Of a stretch of 64,000 bases of DNA, positions 35,446-43,665 are shown piece by piece. The stretch is taken from assembly GCF_000373245.1 (NCBI RefSeq), contig NZ_KB890754.1:241635-305634 (forward strand). The letters run 5' to 3'. The stretch is from Echinicola pacifica DSM 19836. GTDB lineage: Bacteria; Bacteroidota; Bacteroidia; Cytophagales; Cyclobacteriaceae. The translations under genes were made by a program, and so were the position numbers. How positions within the stretch are numbered: position 1 is the stretch's first letter; every line of letters begins with the position of its first letter. The notes beneath the pieces were generated by a model, which saw only the letters and a program-made list of their open reading frames with translations, ran no database searches and was not told where the DNA came from.

Positions 35446-36102
35446 ATGAAAATATTTGCAATAAGTGGACTTGGAGCAGACAAAAGAGTTTTTGAATATT
35501 TAACTCTTGAATACGAAATAATTAATGTAGAATGGATCAAGCCAGAATTAAAAGAATCGATTATTCACTACTCACAGCGGTTAATTACTGAATACCGAAT
35601 AGATAAAGATGATGAATATGGGATTTTAGGAGTGAGTTTTGGAGGTTTAATCGCCACCGAGATATCTAAATTAACGAAACCTAAATTTACAATTCTAATT
35701 TCCTCAGTCGAAAACCGAAAGGAATTGGGAGGGCTAATAAGACTAGCTGGTAAATCGAAAATCTTGGATTTGATTCCCGAAAAGCTATTAAACCCACCAA
35801 AATTTCTTGCTTATTTTATGTTTGGTACGGAAAAGAAAGAGTTATTAGACTCGATTCTGAGTGAAACGGATTTTTATTTTTTGAAATGGGCTGTTCGAGA
35901 ACTAATGAATTGGAAAAATCAAACTCGGATAATAAATTTGATTAAAATTGGAGGTTCAAAAGATAAATTACTTCCACCAAAAGGGAATAACACCATCATT
36001 ATTGAAAATGGGGAGCATTTTATGATAGTTGATAGGGCAAAAGAAATAAGTGAAATTATAAATGTAGAAGTAAAAACGATCCTCAATAATGGCAATAATT
36101 AA
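35446..36102 (+). CDS. Alpha/beta-fold hydrolase
   Basis: The 218-residue protein has no signal peptide. It begins with a hydrolase strand and oxyanion region (KIFAISGLGADKRVFEYL), has the nucleophile elbow GVSFGG with Ser as the nucleophile, a candidate acid in GGSKDKLLPP, and the catalytic His in ENGEHFMIVDRA. Substrate unknown; an esterase or thioesterase is likely. It is AT-rich, stands alone and lies in the accessory patch. All three catalytic residues are present, so it is probably active. Confidence 0.82.
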   Translation: MKIFAISGLGADKRVFEYLTLEYEIINVEWIKPELKESIIHYSQRLITEYRIDKDDEYGILGVSFGGLIATEISKLTKPKFTILISSVENRKELGGLIRLAGKSKILDLIPEKLLNPPKFLAYFMFGTEKKELLDSILSETDFYFLKWAVRELMNWKNQTRIINLIKIGGSKDKLLPPKGNNTIIIENGEHFMIVDRAKEISEIINVEVKTILNNGNN

Positions 36103-36692
36103 TTCGAATTTTTGTCCATAATTTGGATTTTCCCGAGCTTGCTGCCCCCTTCTTTGCGGAGTATTTTTGACTAATTAAACGGGCCTTAAAAGCAGTATTC
36201 GACTGCCATTCCCGCGCATTGTTGACCTCTTTAGATTAGTGGTAATATTCCGAATCATTCAGGTTCCTCAAATGAATGCACTTTTAGGCATTTTGCTTTC
36301 CCCCATCTCCTTTTTGAAAAAAAAATCTTCACACGAAATCAACGCTGGATTATACGATTTCTTGACCTTGCTTTTGCTCCTTTAGATAGGGAAGTCTTAT
36401 TTTTTTTTGTAGCCCATGATCCGAACATTATAGTATTCTCTCTCGTCCACATCTTCCTGATATCCAAGATATAAAGATGAAATACAGATCATCCGTTATG
36501 AAATTATTATTGAGGAAAGGGTCAAACAAATTTCCCTGGATAAAGTTATAAGGCTGGTTTGTATTTGATAGCATTTCCCATCTTCTGTACGATTTACCTC
36601 GAACAGGATTTCCGAAGTTGGCATAAAATTTATGGACTATATGTATATAAATTTTTATTTAGGTTGGATTTATTCCATAAAATATAACGGAT
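36103..36692. other. Intergenic region upstream of the PLP-enzyme cluster
   Basis: About 590 bases hold no gene; short frames here lack motifs. The promoter of the three-gene cluster should lie in the last part. No Fur-box-like inverted repeat and no clear TAnnTTTG box was recognised by eye. Confidence 0.4.
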
Positions 36693-37697
36693 ATGATAAC
36701 GACAGCTAATGTTTCGAGTGTTGCCAATAATATAGTAGGAACTATAGGGGAGACTCCTCTGGTGCGTTTGGATAAGCTTTTTCCTTCTAGCCACGCATCG
36801 TTTTATGGGAAATTGGAAGCCGCCAATCCCTCCGGAAGTTTGAAGGATAGAACTTCGATTTTTATCGTGAAAAGAGCATTGGAAGAGGGGGAAATTAGTA
36901 GGGGCCATACCATCATTGAATCAAGTTCTGGTAATATGGCTTTGGGCCTTGCTCAAGCCTGCATTCACTATGGATTAAAATTAATAGTGGTCGTGGATCC
37001 TAATCTGAATGCTCATACCGAAAAATTGCTAAAAGCCTATGGCGCTCAAATAGAATATGTGAAAACTCCCGCAGAGGAGGGAGGCTTTCTGGCTGCCAGA
37101 TTAAATAGGGTTCAGGAGCTCCTGAAGGATATACCCAATAGTTTCTGGACCAATCAGTATGGAAATAAAAATAATCCACTGGCTCATCATAAAACCATTG
37201 ATGAAATAATGCGAGACTTGAGTGGCGCGGTGGATTATCTCTTTGTGTCCACCAGTACCTGCGGCACCTTGATGGGTTATGCAGATTATATTGCAGAGAA
37301 TCACCATCGCACGAAGGTCATAGCAGTGGATGCCTTGGGAAGCGTCTTATTTGGTGGTAGGCCAGCTCCTAGGCTTATTCCGGGGCATGGAGCAGGGGTG
37401 CAATCCCAATTTTTGGATTCAGACAAAATTGAAGGACATATAAAGGTAAGCGATTTGGATTGTATCAAGGGATGCTGGTCCTTGCTGAAGAAGGAGGGTA
37501 TCCTATGCGGAGGATCCACGGGAGGCGTGGTGGCCGCCATTAGCCGATACATCAGGCATATCCCCGATGGTAGTAATTGTGTTTTTCTACTGGCAGATAA
37601 AGGTGAGCGGTACCTCGATACCATCTATAATCCAGACTGGGTGTTGACAAACTTTCCTGAAAGCAAGGCCTTGTTAAAAACTAAGGTGGGATGGTAA
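36693..37697 (+). CDS. SbnA-like PLP-dependent enzyme (cysteine synthase family)
   Basis: The 334-residue fold-type II PLP enzyme has the PLP lysine Lys51 in NPSGSLKDR, the substrate loop ESSSGNMALGLA, and a phosphate-binding segment GGSTGGVVAAI. The SSSGN loop and the RTSIFIVKRALEEGEI segment are closer to SbnA (N-(2-amino-2-carboxyethyl)-L-glutamate synthase, the first step to 2,3-diaminopropionate) than to housekeeping CysK. In SbnA, O-phosphoserine and glutamate are condensed. The downstream gene starts inside its last codons (7-base overlap), so the three genes 36693-40970 form a coupled operon. No SbnB-like partner is present, so the product may differ; an ordinary O-acetylserine sulfhydrylase-like activity is the alternative. 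Confidence 0.85.
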   Translation: MITTANVSSVANNIVGTIGETPLVRLDKLFPSSHASFYGKLEAANPSGSLKDRTSIFIVKRALEEGEISRGHTIIESSSGNMALGLAQACIHYGLKLIVVVDPNLNAHTEKLLKAYGAQIEYVKTPAEEGGFLAARLNRVQELLKDIPNSFWTNQYGNKNNPLAHHKTIDEIMRDLSGAVDYLFVSTSTCGTLMGYADYIAENHHRTKVIAVDALGSVLFGGRPAPRLIPGHGAGVQSQFLDSDKIEGHIKVSDLDCIKGCWSLLKKEGILCGGSTGGVVAAISRYIRHIPDGSNCVFLLADKGERYLDTIYNPDWVLTNFPESKALLKTKVGW

Positions 37698-39508
37698 GGT
37701 ATAAGAACGACCGCGTCATGAACCCTTCGATTTTTAATATTGCGATTGTAGGCTTGGGGCCTAAAGGCTTCTATGCTTTTGAGCGGCTAGTGGCTCAGCT
37801 CAAGGCAAGGCAGATTACGCAGCCTATAGCCATACATCTCTTCAATCAAAATGAGTTTTTTGGTGCTGGAAATATTTACCGTGATGATCAGCCACCCTAT
37901 CTGATTATGAATTATGCGAATAAAAATATCAATTGCTGGACGGATGAACTTCCCAAGGCCATCACCGATTCAACACTTAGTTTTGTGGACTGGCTACAAA
38001 GCAAAACTGATGATGCTAAGGAGCATTTGGAGGAAAGTTTTGCCTCTCGGGCCAAAGTGGGGACTTATTTGATGGAGGGCTTCGCCCAAATAGAAGAGCA
38101 TTTACCCGACACTATTTCATTGGTGAAACATATCACTACCGTACGCAGTATCGAAAAGTGTGGAGAAAAGTACCAAATAGCTTCCGATAATAATGGGAAG
38201 AATTCATTACCGTTGTTTGATAGAATTTTACTAAGTACCGGGCATTTGGGCAGCGGAGCAGGGTTTGAGGAGCATAAAGAAATGGGTCCATCTATCGATT
38301 TTATTTACCCCTGTACTCAGGCCTTGGGTCATATTGATCCGGGTGCCAGGGTGGCCATCAAAGGCTTTGGATTGACCTGTATTGATGCTGTGCTAGCACT
38401 TACAGAAGGGCGAGAGGGGAGGTTTGAATCCACCGAATCGGGAAAAATGACCTATATTCCTTCCGGAAAGGAACCGCTACAGATGTTTCCCTATTCCAGA
38501 ACAGGCCTCCCAATGATGCCCCGCACTGGTGTCTCAGAGGATAACCATCCGCTGTATATTCTTACTGAGAAGCGGATGTCGTCTCTGCAAGGGTCTAGGC
38601 CTGTTTCTTTTGAACAGGACATTTTACCATGGATTATTGAGGAATGCCGCTTTGCCTATTACAGGGTGCTTTTTAAGGAAAATGCTCGCGAATTCATGTT
38701 CAGCTCAGATTTTGAATTTCTCAATCAGCAAATTGATGCATTCCATAACGATTTTCCAGAGCTGGAGAAGTTTCACTGGGATAGCCTGCTCGATCCATTC
38801 CTCCATCAGACTTCCCTGAACCATAGTGAGGTGTCCTCCTATATCGAAAAGCTAATCAATGCCGCTGAGAAAGGGCCGGATCAAAGTCCATTAAATGCTG
38901 CCTTTGCTACCTGGCGTAAAATAAGTCGGGGATTCAACGAGATCTATAGTTTTGGAGGGCTGGATGCCCCCTCTCATCGCCTCTTTGATCAGCATTATTT
39001 TGGACTCTTCAACCGTATTTCCTATGGTCCACCGGTTCAGAATATGAAGAAAATCCTTGCCCTTGCCGAAGCCGGCATAGTGGATTTTACTTTCCTGAGA
39101 GGATCGAGCTTTATAGTCTCCGATGCCTTGGGTGCCTATGGGATTTTGGAAGGCAATCAACAGTTGATGCAAGCCATAGACTTTCATATTAATGCGCAGA
39201 TTCCTCGAAATAATAAGAGTAATACCCCGGGTAAACTCCACCAGTCACTATTGGAAAAAGGCTTGGGAAGAAAATTCCTGAATGACCAAAATGGACATTA
39301 TTGCCCAGGGGCCTTGGACATTGATGTTCAGGGCAAGGTAATTGCGCAGGATGGAATGGTGCAGCAAGGGATTACTCTGTACGGTACCCCCACAGAAGGG
39401 CTTACCTATGACAATGATACTTTGTCAAGATCACGAAACAATTTTGCTTCCCTATGGGCCGAGGAAGTAGCCCATGAAATCGAAAAAAAAGAACTAGTAA
39501 ATAATTAA
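37691..39508 (+). CDS. FAD/NAD(P)-binding protein (NAD_binding_9 type)
   Basis: The 605-residue protein starts with a dinucleotide fold (IFNIAIVGLGPKGFYAFERL; GxGPxG). It is related to the FAD-NAD(P)-binding and lysine/ornithine N-monooxygenase-like superfamily. A second dinucleotide-like site appears near residue 220 (ARVAIKGFGLTCIDAVLAL), and FPYSRTGLPMMPR follows. The long C-terminal half is not assigned. ATG 37691 overlaps the stop of the previous gene; ATG 37718 gives the more usual N-terminus. Sandwiched between two PLP-enzyme genes, it is probably a flavin-dependent oxidoreductase or monooxygenase of the same pathway; its substrate is unknown. Confidence 0.85.
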   Translation: MVRYKNDRVMNPSIFNIAIVGLGPKGFYAFERLVAQLKARQITQPIAIHLFNQNEFFGAGNIYRDDQPPYLIMNYANKNINCWTDELPKAITDSTLSFVDWLQSKTDDAKEHLEESFASRAKVGTYLMEGFAQIEEHLPDTISLVKHITTVRSIEKCGEKYQIASDNNGKNSLPLFDRILLSTGHLGSGAGFEEHKEMGPSIDFIYPCTQALGHIDPGARVAIKGFGLTCIDAVLALTEGREGRFESTESGKMTYIPSGKEPLQMFPYSRTGLPMMPRTGVSEDNHPLYILTEKRMSSLQGSRPVSFEQDILPWIIEECRFAYYRVLFKENAREFMFSSDFEFLNQQIDAFHNDFPELEKFHWDSLLDPFLHQTSLNHSEVSSYIEKLINAAEKGPDQSPLNAAFATWRKISRGFNEIYSFGGLDAPSHRLFDQHYFGLFNRISYGPPVQNMKKILALAEAGIVDFTFLRGSSFIVSDALGAYGILEGNQQLMQAIDFHINAQIPRNNKSNTPGKLHQSLLEKGLGRKFLNDQNGHYCPGALDIDVQGKVIAQDGMVQQGITLYGTPTEGLTYDNDTLSRSRNNFASLWAEEVAHEIEKKELVNN

Positions 39509-39515
39509 ATCAAAA

Positions 39516-40970
39516 ATGAATCCTAGCTATACTAAAGGCAATCCAGATGCTGGACTTAGCCCTATTACTTCTCCATGGATGCACCGTATTTTTCAAGACC
39601 AGAAAATCATCACCGGTCTAATCGAGAAATACGGCTCTCCTATAAACCTACACCACCTGCCCACCTTTACGGACAATATAGCCTCCTTCAAAAAGCTATT
39701 TGAGACCTATAGATTAAAGCATCAGTTGTTTTATGCCCGAAAGGCTAATAAATCTCGCTCCTTGGTGAAGCAGGCTTTGGAGGCAGGGATCGGCGTGGAT
39801 ACAGCGAGTCAAAAAGAACTGGAGCAATCTCTCGCTTTGGGAGGAACCGCGGATACCTTGGTCCTAACTTCCGCTATCAAAACCCGAGCACAGTATGAGC
39901 TGGCCATCAAAGCCCGGGTGCCCATTATATTAGACAACTGGGATGAATGCGTTATGGCTCAAGGCATCGCTGAGCAGCTGAACGAGAAGGCCATAATAGG
40001 CATTCGAATCAGCGGATTTATAGTGGAGAATACCAAGTTATATAGTCGGTTTGGATTTGATATTGAGGTAATAGAGACCTTTATCCTTCAGAATTTCGGC
40101 GAAAATGGCGTTTTTAAGAACCTTATGCTTCAGGGTTTTCATTTTCATCTGGACGGCTATTCGACACGACAGCGTGGTAAGGCCCTTTCCGATTGCATTC
40201 ACCTTGCCTCAAAAATAAAGGAGGAGGGACATACTATTCGCTTTATCGATATGGGGGGAGGTATATTAATGAACTATCTGGAAAGTGAGCAGCAATGGAG
40301 GGATTTTGATAAAGCCCTCCAGGAAGGGGTCAAGGCCAATAATAATCCGCTCACCTTCAATGGTAATGGCCTCGGATATGAAGTAATCAATAATGAATTG
40401 AGAGGTCAACTGAAAACCTATCCTTATTTTAATAAGACCAATGGCATAGGATTTCTGAAGGAGGTATTGGACTATGAGGATTCCATAGCAGGAGAAACTA
40501 ATGCTTCTAGATTACGGGAATTGGGTTTGGAAATAAGAATAGAACCGGGGCGATCCTTACTCAGTCAGACGGGGATGACGATTGCGCGTGTGGCTCACCG
40601 GAAGCAAGATGCCAAAGGACAATGGCTCGTAGGTTTGGAAATGAATATGAGTCAAATGATGAGTTCAAGTGAAGACTTCCTTCTGGATCCCTATATTATG
40701 TATGCAGAACAGGCCGGTGCCGACCAGCCAGTTGAGGTGTTTTTTACAGGCGCTTATTGCTTAGAAAGGGATGTGCTGCTAAAGCGAAGTATTACCTTGC
40801 CCCGCTTACCTGAAATAGGTGATTTTGTGGCTTTTGTGAATACAGCTGGCTATATGATGCACTTCTTTGAAACGGAGGCGCATCTCTTTGAGCTGTCCCA
40901 AAACTTAAGTTTTAGTAAGGAGGATAGCCTTTCTGTATCGGATTTTACTGAAGATGATTTGATCGCTTAA
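39516..40970 (+). CDS. DapDC-like PLP-dependent decarboxylase (Y4yA-type)
   Basis: The 484-residue protein is a fold-type III PLP enzyme of the LysA/ornithine decarboxylase superfamily. Lys76 in FYARKANKS is the PLP lysine; GFHFHLDGY, FIDMGGGILMNY (glycine-rich phosphate loop) and EPGRSLLSQTG follow, and FFTGAYCLERDVL corresponds to the C-terminal active-site segment. It is longer than LysA (about 420) and has an inserted region around residues 255-330, as in the uncharacterised Y4yA group. It starts seven bases after the flavoprotein gene. It probably decarboxylates (or epimerises) an amino acid made by that pathway; the housekeeping lysine role is unlikely in this context. Confidence 0.85.
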   Translation: MNPSYTKGNPDAGLSPITSPWMHRIFQDQKIITGLIEKYGSPINLHHLPTFTDNIASFKKLFETYRLKHQLFYARKANKSRSLVKQALEAGIGVDTASQKELEQSLALGGTADTLVLTSAIKTRAQYELAIKARVPIILDNWDECVMAQGIAEQLNEKAIIGIRISGFIVENTKLYSRFGFDIEVIETFILQNFGENGVFKNLMLQGFHFHLDGYSTRQRGKALSDCIHLASKIKEEGHTIRFIDMGGGILMNYLESEQQWRDFDKALQEGVKANNNPLTFNGNGLGYEVINNELRGQLKTYPYFNKTNGIGFLKEVLDYEDSIAGETNASRLRELGLEIRIEPGRSLLSQTGMTIARVAHRKQDAKGQWLVGLEMNMSQMMSSSEDFLLDPYIMYAEQAGADQPVEVFFTGAYCLERDVLLKRSITLPRLPEIGDFVAFVNTAGYMMHFFETEAHLFELSQNLSFSKEDSLSVSDFTEDDLIA

Positions 40971-41056
40971 AGCTTATTTGTAGCGGTGAATGGTCATATT
41001 TCAATGGCTTTTGTAATCATAGTTTCTCCTTATAATAGAGATTTGTTCATAAATGT

Positions 41057-41098
41057 AGCAGCACCTCGCTTGAAAATGGCGATAGGGGCTGCTTTTTT
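41057..41098 (+). terminator. Probable terminator of the PLP-enzyme cluster
   Basis: AGCAGC (41057-41062) pairs with GCTGCT (41088-41093), with further inner pairs around a loop, followed by six T. It lies 86 bases after the last gene. Confidence 0.65.
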
Positions 41099-41220
41099 AG
41101 GCTGAGAAAGTCACCTTTATGTTCTGTAAATAGGACCCTATTTGCTTTAGTAAGAAGGCTGCTTTTTACAGGTGCCAGGAATAGAAGAGCGCAAGCAGCT
41201 CCTGCTTTAGCAGCTTATGC

Positions 41221-41763
41221 CTAGAGGGAGGAGATCGAATAGTTTAGACCTACTGAAAAAAGGACGGGAGGGGGCGTAGTTTCAATATTTATACTTGGAT
41301 CTCTCTTCATGGCCTCAATGGCGTCATTGTAACTTTCCGACCGACTAGGGACGAGTATGCTGATTTTCCAAAATAATGCTGGAGTTTTCAGGGAATTGAT
41401 TTTCACTCCTGCTCCAAAACTCGGCCCGTTATAGGTGTTATTGTATATTTCCTTCCCTTCCACGATCGTGGCGGCATTATATCCATACATCCCTGTTACG
41501 AATAAGGAAGTTTGCCTTTTACTTGGAATCCCAAGTTCAAAGCCTGCATTTCCAGCTGCACCAACAAGATTATAGCCCAATCCACCAAAAACAGTGAAAT
41601 AGTTTTCAATATTATAGGAGAGCTGTGCACCAAATCCACCGTAAGGTAGTCCTGCACCCAAGCCCGCAAAGGCCATGTTTTTTTGGTTAGCAGGCTTTTG
41701 GGAATAAGCAGAAAATGAAATCGTTAGGAATAATAGCAGGAGTACTATATAGTTCTTTTTCAT
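41221..41763 (-). CDS. Small exported protein, probable outer membrane beta-barrel
   Basis: The 180-residue protein has a clear signal peptide (about 1-21, ending SAYSQ). The mature part has alternating glycine- and aromatic-rich strands (FAGLGAGLPYGGFGAQLSYN, FTVFGGLGYNLVGAAGNAGF, SFGAGVKIN, VLFSVGLNYSISSL) that suggest a small beta-barrel of about eight strands. Function unknown. It follows a DUF2846-like gene by 95 bases in the same direction, so the two could be co-transcribed. Confidence 0.75.
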   Translation of the reverse strand: MKKNYIVLLLLFLTISFSAYSQKPANQKNMAFAGLGAGLPYGGFGAQLSYNIENYFTVFGGLGYNLVGAAGNAGFELGIPSKRQTSLFVTGMYGYNAATIVEGKEIYNNTYNGPSFGAGVKINSLKTPALFWKISILVPSRSESYNDAIEAMKRDPSINIETTPPPVLFSVGLNYSISSL

Positions 41764-42823: not shown

Positions 42824-43312
42824 TTACTTCTGGAAAGAAGTAAGCATCCAGTGATGAAGTTCTATGCTTTTGATCATTGCAATCAGCATATCTTCTGTGG
42901 CGCTGTCGCCAAGTTCAGCCACTTTTTCGGCACAATCATTCATATTCTCCGAGAGGATCTCAAAATCCTTGAGTACCTCAGTTACCATTTTGTCCGAACT
43001 TAAATCGGTACCTACCTCTTTGATTTCTGAATGCTCGAGATAATCTTTCATTAGGCTCAGTGGTGTCATCCCAAATACCCTAATTCTCTCAGCGATCAAG
43101 TCAATGTTTTCAAAGGCTTCATTGTATAATTCTTCAAACTTCTCATGCAAATCAAAGAAATCTCCACCGGTTACATTCCAGTGAAAGTTACGAAGCTTCT
43201 GATAGTGCACATGGTAGTTTGCAAGTAGTTGATTTAATGATTCAACGATTTTGTCTGACTCACTTTTATTGAATCCTAATTTTTTGAATACTCGTTTTTC
43301 TGACTTAGCCAT
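42824..43312 (-). CDS. dps: Dps-family DNA-protection ferritin
   Basis: The protein has 162 residues from ATG 43312 (MAKSEKRVFKK). The frame is open 20 codons upstream, but that part has no family similarity. The ferroxidase-site residues are present: His44 in NFHWNV, His56 and Glu60 in DLHEKFEELY, Asp71 and Glu75 in NIDLIAERI. Dps dodecamers oxidise Fe(II) with hydrogen peroxide and store the iron, protecting DNA in stress and stationary phase. The lysine-rich N-terminus (KRVFKK) may bind DNA. Single gene with a perfect terminator. Confidence 0.95.
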   Translation of the reverse strand: MAKSEKRVFKKLGFNKSESDKIVESLNQLLANYHVHYQKLRNFHWNVTGGDFFDLHEKFEELYNEAFENIDLIAERIRVFGMTPLSLMKDYLEHSEIKEVGTDLSSDKMVTEVLKDFEILSENMNDCAEKVAELGDSATEDMLIAMIKSIELHHWMLTSFQK

Positions 43313-43665
43313 AAGTATATGTGGTTTGAAATAACAAAATTTATTTAATAGAATTGGAAGGCCAATTATCAAGGTTGGACTTCCGAAAATTAAGTGTGAA
43401 AATCCGTATGATTTTCATGGCTTAAAGCTACTAGCCTATATGCATATTCTATGCCATAGCTGTTTGGGCGCCCATTTAAAATCACCAAAATCTTTTATTT
43501 TTTTTCTAAAAAATGGTGATTAAAACTTAGAACAAGTAATTAATGGAATAGGATGAGCTTTGTTGAAATAAGATTAGAGTATTGAGGCTTGCTTAGACCT
43601 GACCTGAAATAAAAATTGGTACCAAAAGGGAGACTGATCAAAGGATAAATGGGAGAGGGTATTTA
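43313..43665. other. Intergenic region upstream of dps with an inverted repeat
   Basis: No gene was found. AATCACCA (43480-43487) pairs with TGGTGATT (43514-43521) around a 26-base AT-rich loop; it might terminate the kinase-like operon that reads in from the right, or be a binding site upstream of dps. The dps promoter is not clear. Confidence 0.35.

Follow-up and report, generated by a model that had tools for sequence, protein, structure and literature searches.

A conserved SbnA–flavoprotein–Y4yA gene trio in Echinicola pacifica and a possible pathway to an N-oxygenated amine

What is made by an SbnA-type enzyme when its gene is followed not by sbnB but by genes for a flavoprotein and a decarboxylase? 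The question is raised by three genes of Echinicola pacifica DSM 19836, in a stretch of 64,000 nt (positions 241,635–305,634 of contig NZ_KB890754.1, RefSeq assembly GCF_000373245.1) that we call the window; the assembly amounts to 5.44 Mb in 22 contigs and the trio is on the one numbered G000:C16. SbnA-type chemistry is familiar in the biosynthesis of siderophores and of peptide antibiotics. In the present case a compact operon of patchy distribution, often near stress genes, couples it to a flavoprotein of the N-oxygenase type, and certain genomes encode the two as a fusion. An earlier note, made from the letters of the window alone, had seen in the trio a possible undescribed pathway to an unusual amino acid or a metallophore precursor, and we recognised no description of the trio in the open-licence literature searched. 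Our comparisons bear out the pathway, with a first enzyme that resembles SbnA in its family-model score, its place in the tree and its active-site residues, and point away from the metallophore. We propose, with a probability of about 0.45, an intracellular, stress-linked route in three steps to a putative N-oxygenated, decarboxylated amine of the diaminopropionate type.

The three genes (Table 1) lie on one strand; the open reading frames (ORFs) of the SbnA-type enzyme and the flavoprotein overlap by 7 bases and a 7-base gap precedes the third, so the head-to-tail arrangement described earlier is found at the same coordinates in the ORF list. Genome contigs were scanned with a Y4yA alignment, and the best 80 of 247 relatives, ranked by similarity to the Y4yA of the window, were kept as loci. 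Of these 80, 77 have the complete trio, tightly packed and with its gene order unchanged; the trio is thus conserved, whereas a lack of conservation had been set beforehand as a possible refutation. The exceptions are a contig end before the SbnA gene (L061), a locus with remnants (L053) and a lone Y4yA gene (L100).

Table 1. Features of the locus, in window coordinates (PLP, pyridoxal 5′-phosphate)
Feature	Position	Strand	Size and basis
SbnA-type PLP enzyme	36693..37697	+	334 aa; TIGR03945, solved-chain match, tree, residues
NAD_binding_9 flavoprotein	37691..39508	+	605 aa; PF13454, 8cp2 match, Asn74
Y4yA-type PLP decarboxylase	39516..40970	+	484 aa; PF02784, Y4yA-annotated relatives, failed lysA model
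Upstream stretch TGGCATAAAATTTATG, candidate promoter element, weak	36619..36634	+	in 3 of 79 upstream regions

Identity of the three enzymes

The Pfam families of the products are, in order, PALP, NAD_binding_9 and Orn_Arg_deC_N and, together with TIGR03945 and the annotation of relatives as Y4yA, they agree with the identities first proposed. The first enzyme scored 402.9 bits on TIGR03945 (cut-off 349.95) and, among the matches listed, the models for cysK, cysM and cystathionine beta-synthase (CBS) stayed under their own cut-offs. Among solved chains, SbnA (5d84, E = 5.5e-73) and its variants are the nearest, followed by CmnB (8if7). Lys51, in the motif GSLKDR, is in a column conserved in at least 97% of 69 rows (aligned sequences); 12 loci lack a separate SbnA ORF, namely nine with a fused frame plus L053, L061 and L100, and L053 was excluded from all column counts. 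The residues of SbnA that select phosphoserine, Arg132, Tyr152 and Ser185, align with Arg136, Tyr156 and Ser188 of the window enzyme. Of the 23 trio rows, 22 have the complete triad, the exception being L074 with Gly188. The triad is also complete in two of five rows of SbnA enzymes partnered by SbnB, and in none of four CysK/CBS rows, one of which does have the Tyr.

The phylogeny suggested in the earlier note groups the first enzyme with SbnA and not with CysK. The 23 trio rows and the five SbnB-partnered rows fall on one side of the tree (support 100/99), and the four CysK/CBS rows and the rhizobial y4xP on the other; y4xP is next to CysK on a long branch, and it lacks the Tyr and the Ser of the triad. 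The trio rows do not form an exclusive clade, since the SbnB-partnered L119 is placed, with weak support (89/65), beside those of Sulfitobacter and Tsukamurella. From its sequence we strongly infer that the first enzyme is an O-phosphoserine-dependent beta-substitution enzyme. A plain cysteine synthase is ruled out by the TIGR03945 result and by the placement with SbnA.

For the flavoprotein, the sole solved relative at E < 0.001 is 8cp2/8cp5 (3.3e-30), identified in excerpts of PMC10404684 as the L-aspartate N-hydroxylase of Streptomyces sp. V2; residues 16–573 align with residues 4–570 of 8cp2, near the full length. The same excerpts place Asn62 of that enzyme above the flavin C4a, and the corresponding position, Asn74 in the window, is Asn in 79/79 rows. 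The aspartate pocket is different, as judged from residues paired through one phmmer alignment that ends before Arg577. Thus, the column of Arg13 has Lys in 76 of 79 rows, that of Arg276 is variable, that of Arg412 has Ser in 62, that of Asn413 has Pro or Glu in 57 (Arg in the window) and that of Arg416 has Asn in 65 and Arg in two; Arg266 is retained as Arg or Lys in all 79, and the Arg409 column holds Arg in 54. With the Asn over the flavin kept and the aspartate pocket changed, the N-oxygenase machinery looks intact and the substrate should differ, and the protein is probably an NADPH/O2-dependent N-oxygenase acting on a substrate other than aspartate. It resembles the L-aspartate N-hydroxylases FzmM and CreE in the near full-length match, the dinucleotide-binding glycine motifs and the Asn over the flavin, but it mostly lacks the residues of the aspartate entry chamber and is encoded between SbnA and Y4yA. 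We rejected an aspartate N-hydroxylase proper because the aspartate-binding positions Arg276, Asn413 and Arg416 are not kept. No CreD (nitrosuccinate lyase) was recognised by eye among the recurrent neighbours, with no search aimed at it.

Relatives of the flavoprotein were also met in other settings. A plasmid of Pantoea agglomerans (L015:6037-11267) encodes one of 724 aa in an unrelated cluster, possibly for a phosphonate pathway, with genes for an aminotransferase, a phosphoenolpyruvate-binding protein and a member of the alkaline phosphatase family. On plasmids of Vibrio crassostreae (L018) and Helicobacter pylori (L020), typed as conjugative and mobilizable, distant relatives are paired with a transporter of the major facilitator superfamily (MFS), of the YbfB/YjiJ family.

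The third enzyme reached 130.6 bits on the lysA model TIGR01048, under the cut-off of 297.9, and its relatives on plasmids are annotated "Y4yA family PLP-dependent enzyme". Its identity is about 36–37% to the Sulfitobacter rows and 26–29% to rhizobial Y4yA rows. It bears the marks of the Y4yA family, Lys76 within ARKANK (a column conserved in at least 97%), EPGRS at 343–347 and Cys415, whose roles, PLP binding in the case of Lys76, we assume from the family. Both lysines reported earlier as intact, Lys51 and Lys76, are therefore also conserved. We take the protein as a likely Y4yA-family decarboxylase and, by the curated model, not a diaminopimelate decarboxylase (LysA). Of the identities that would have refuted the earlier reading, that of a plain diaminopimelate decarboxylase is disfavoured by this model.

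Y4yA also occurs in the rhizobial group y4yA-y4xP-y4xO-y4xN-y4xM, part of a type III secretion system locus in excerpts of PMC3973906. As in the trio, Y4yA adjoins an enzyme of the cysteine synthase family; in the rhizobial order, however, Y4yA leads, an enzyme of the opine dehydrogenase type takes the redox position, and IucA/IucC and MFS genes are attached. In S. fredii, the gene at the y4xO position is annotated as octopine/nopaline dehydrogenase and is followed by IucA/IucC and MFS genes. The parallel once drawn with y4xP-y4xO-y4yA consequently fails, and we rejected this group as the same trio: its middle enzyme is another one, not a flavoprotein, and y4xP sits beside CysK.

Distribution, fusions and gene neighbourhood

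The hosts among the kept loci are mostly Bacteroidota, and further ones are a Balneolaceae metagenome-assembled genome (MAG), Gracilimonas, an Opitutales MAG, a Kiritimatiellaeota genome and a Chloroflexi MAG. The nearest named genomes with the trio are those of Cyclobacterium, with 82–87% SbnA identity. Beyond the 80 loci, the trio was found on Sulfitobacter plasmids and in another genus of the family of the window (L004), as well as on a plasmid of Tsukamurella paurometabola (L022:6375-10296), where SbnA- and Y4yA-type genes are annotated and the flavoprotein match is in two pieces with the middle missing. Within the phylum the distribution is patchy: the flavoprotein alignment matched 16 of 395 genomes at 1e-30. 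Ten of the 16 were inspected as loci, and eight of these, that of the window included, have SbnA and Y4yA beside the flavoprotein; L115 and L118 do not. Ten further genomes of the window's genus gave at most weak flavoprotein matches (best 7.7e-10).

Nine of the 80 loci (L045, L047, L048, L049, L050, L052, L058, L066 and L089) have SbnA and the flavoprotein in a single frame that no stop interrupts; they belong to Mesonia, Salegentibacter, Zunongwangia and Gracilimonas, four genera with several close kin among the strains. The fused frames measure 949–964 aa in four of these genomes. Eight of the nine are flavobacterial and may represent a single event, because their junctions are similar; the linker differs in Gracilimonas, which we take to belong to Balneolota. 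No fusion of flavoprotein and Y4yA was seen among the 80 loci. These natural fusions indicate that the SbnA-type enzyme and the flavoprotein share one pathway, in which they probably act in succession.

Pleomorphovibrio marinus, whose genome contains L105, has a second SbnA–flavoprotein pair (L126:6431-11910, on G087:C2), and the 18 kb read there contain no Y4yA. From this pair, the SbnA-type enzyme and the flavoprotein look like the core of the system. It adjoins a gene for a 708-aa catalase on the opposite strand, and a response regulator/sensor pair was noted by eye upstream.

The absence of SbnB, pointed out earlier for the window, extends to the relatives. A Streptomyces SbnB query gave no match in the 80 loci, and 24 of 31 genomes, that of the window among them, were without a match to the SbnB family, PF02423, at 0.001; two of the remainder gave sub-threshold matches and five were over the cut-off. 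In comparison with the SbnA/SbnB pairs of staphyloferrin B and of CmnB and its relatives, the trio has the same phosphoserine residues in its SbnA-type enzyme but lacks SbnB, and a flavoprotein follows, in one frame with SbnA in the fused loci. SbnA, SbnB and the flavoprotein occur together, without Y4yA, on a Deefgea plasmid (L016) and on one of Rhizobium sp. CB3171 (L121).

For the neighbourhoods, we clustered every ORF lying up to about 9 kb from the 80 loci or from the window trio, 1380 ORFs in total. The 45 clusters listed include the three of the trio; ten were scanned with Pfam through one representative, and the rest were named by eye or left unnamed. Apart from the trio, the most widespread clusters are found in 21 loci. 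By the Pfam family of the representative, the recurrent neighbours are YetF/DUF421 and DUF2383 (21/80 loci each), a VOC/3-dmu-9 protein (20/80), a short-chain dehydrogenase/reductase (SDR; 16/80), a long catalase (14/80), the S30AE hibernation factor (13/80), SemiSWEET (8/80) and Ku (7/80), counts that take in L100, a locus without the trio; no family was assigned to the representatives of clusters 16 and 25. Inspection by eye added PAS-type kinases and response regulators to the recurrent neighbours. At least one of YetF, DUF2383, SDR, catalase, S30AE and Ku is found in 46 of the 80 loci, 12 of which are Maribacter loci with one shared block; YetF or the long catalase is found in 24, across many genera and at varied positions and strands.

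The 21 loci with YetF compare with about 0.5 expected from the 41 copies found in 30 trio genomes with a mean size of 4.8 Mb, which also hold 19 catalases with frames of more than 700 residues. Of these genomes, roughly one per genus, 13 of 30 have a YetF gene (10) or a long-catalase gene (seven) at most 10 kb from the trio SbnA, and among their other SbnA/CysK-family genes 1 of 71 is so placed. The Fisher p of this difference, 1.7e-7, is only indicative, since the genomes were picked by hand with the neighbourhoods already known. The single control case is the extra pair of Pleomorphovibrio, 0.4 kb from its catalase gene. In many relatives, then, the trio is linked to genes for stress protection and not to genes for metal uptake: no match at 1e-4 among the 1380 neighbour ORFs was obtained with SbnB, y4xO, one MFS exporter or either of two IucA/IucC sequences as the query, IucA/IucC was equally absent from the Pfam-scanned neighbours in the window, and SusC-like receptors, named by eye, occur in nine loci. 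The earlier statement that no siderophore synthetase is adjacent is thus borne out, which makes a free unusual amino acid or amine a reasonable product.

Proposed pathway and alternatives

In the first step, which is strongly indicated by the sequence, the SbnA-type enzyme would condense an amino acid with O-phospho-L-serine into an N-substituted 2,3-diaminopropionate, for example N-(1-amino-1-carboxyl-2-ethyl)-glutamic acid (ACEGA); that the second substrate is most likely L-glutamate is a guess by analogy. The flavoprotein would act next, as suggested by its natural fusions with SbnA, and, as a class-B-type NADPH/O2 monooxygenase, could oxygenate the newly made nitrogen centre. More speculatively, hydrolysis of a nitrone would explain the release of 2-oxoglutarate without SbnB and would leave a compound of the 3-(hydroxyamino)alanine type. 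Y4yA would then remove the alanyl carboxylate to yield a small N-oxygenated aminoethylamine which, to judge from the gene neighbourhoods and again speculatively, may stay in the cell and serve in stress protection. If it is such an intracellular protectant, many marine Bacteroidota would hold an unrecognised stress metabolite.

N-hydroxylation of diaminopropionate has been proposed in nature, in excerpts of reviews on L-alanosine (PMC11705231, PMC7347517). That pathway shares with our proposal an N-hydroxylated diaminopropionate and has a CreE homologue in its cluster, but the same excerpts assign the CreE homologue to aspartate, and a separate flavoprotein to diaminopropionate bound on a carrier protein.

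Several observations weigh against the proposed pathway. The substrates and products of steps 2 and 3 are guesses, and the exact product, the nitrone route and the protective role are speculative. The Ser185 position is not decisive by itself because Gly replaces it (Gly188) in the other three SbnB-partnered rows, and step 3 is not general because the second Pleomorphovibrio pair, L016 and L121 have no Y4yA; in the latter two, free diaminopropionate could be the flavoprotein substrate. The link to stress genes, apart from the post hoc choice of control genomes, is uneven. In 17 of the 30 genomes neither YetF nor a long catalase is at most 10 kb from the trio; the six stress families are all missing up to about 9 kb from the trio in the window and in its two nearest relatives, L026 and L027; the neighbours of the window trio recur in 0/80 loci, with a Dps-like gene alone nearby; and the annotated stretches around the Sulfitobacter trios show no YetF or catalase. 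A wider formulation is rather doubtful. It would have a hitherto undescribed class of bacterial stress metabolites, organic hydroxylamines or nitrones, assembled out of an amino acid and phosphoserine by an SbnA–N-monooxygenase module, at times a single bifunctional protein, with an optional decarboxylase. These would act as intracellular redox-active protectants, their genes lying in general-stress islands that include Ku, DUF2383, YetF and long catalase.

The flavoprotein might instead do the work of SbnB, releasing L-2,3-diaminopropionate oxidatively from ACEGA without forming an N–O bond, so that Y4yA would produce ethylenediamine or a derivative. The lack of SbnB in the 80 loci and in most of the genomes searched is in keeping with this, as are the SbnA–flavoprotein fusions and the rhizobial pairing of a cysteine-synthase-type gene with another redox family, opine dehydrogenase. 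Nevertheless, flavoprotein relatives co-occur with SbnB in L016 and L121, where no replacement is needed, a setting that speaks for an extra oxidation step at the new nitrogen, and the one significant solved relative is an N-hydroxylase, with an invariant Asn over the flavin; we consider the replacement unlikely. The metallophore pathway, to a staphyloferrin B precursor or a chelator of the aminopolycarboxylate kind, is distinctly improbable. SbnA and, in some cases, decarboxylases of the SbnH or Y4yA type are found in such clusters (e.g., staphyloferrin B), the rhizobial group has its IucA/IucC gene and MFS transporter, and Methylocystis has SbnA-SbnB-IucA/IucC. Near the trio, by contrast, no homologue of IucA/IucC or of the Methylocystis MFS exporter (the single exporter query) was found, SusC-like receptors are few, SbnB is missing and the neighbours are of the stress type; most of the smaller clusters were named by eye or unnamed, a test that distant transport genes would escape. 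The metallophores [S,S]-ethylenediamine-disuccinic acid (EDDS) and ethylenediamine-succinic acid hydroxyarginine (EDHA) would share with the trio an ethylenediamine-type chemistry. However, EDDS is a zinc-regulated zincophore.

We likewise give little credence to a zwitterionic osmolyte as the product. Many host genera are, to judge by their names, marine or saline, and the stress neighbours and the lack of siderophore-type partners would fit a compatible solute; an O2-dependent N-oxygenase would be an odd step towards a bulk osmolyte. A plain cysteine synthase and a plain diaminopimelate decarboxylase next to an unrelated flavoprotein, which general fold similarity could suggest, is almost certainly wrong, being contradicted by the family models, the tree, the phosphoserine residues, the co-occurrence and the fusions.

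Upstream region and single loci

The top enriched 8-mer was present in just 9 of 79 upstream regions, so no common motif was found; an Rfam scan of 35900–41300 gave zero matches, and the consensus promoters found (9) did not exceed those in shuffled sequence (mean 11.6). The stretch TGGCATAAAATTTATG, common only to the window and two Cyclobacterium loci, is possibly a weak promoter element.

Some loci merit a separate description. In Maribacter sp. ACAM166 (L053:8325-10443), SbnA and the flavoprotein are in fragments and Y4yA is spread over three ORFs. The lone Y4yA paralogue of Mesonia algae (L100:8980-11449) lies amid YetF, DUF2383 and SDR genes, followed by an AraC-like ORF (by eye), and the same strain holds a complete trio at L031. 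In Cyclobacterium sp. 1_MG-2023 (L027:8848-12658), a pair of ORFs resembling an AbiE-type toxin-antitoxin system (by eye) stands behind Y4yA and is followed by a second, partial Y4yA copy with 84% identity, perhaps from an insertion with duplication. In the window, the Dps-like gene, with a ferritin domain, is at 42824–43372 on the minus strand, 1.9 kb from the trio.

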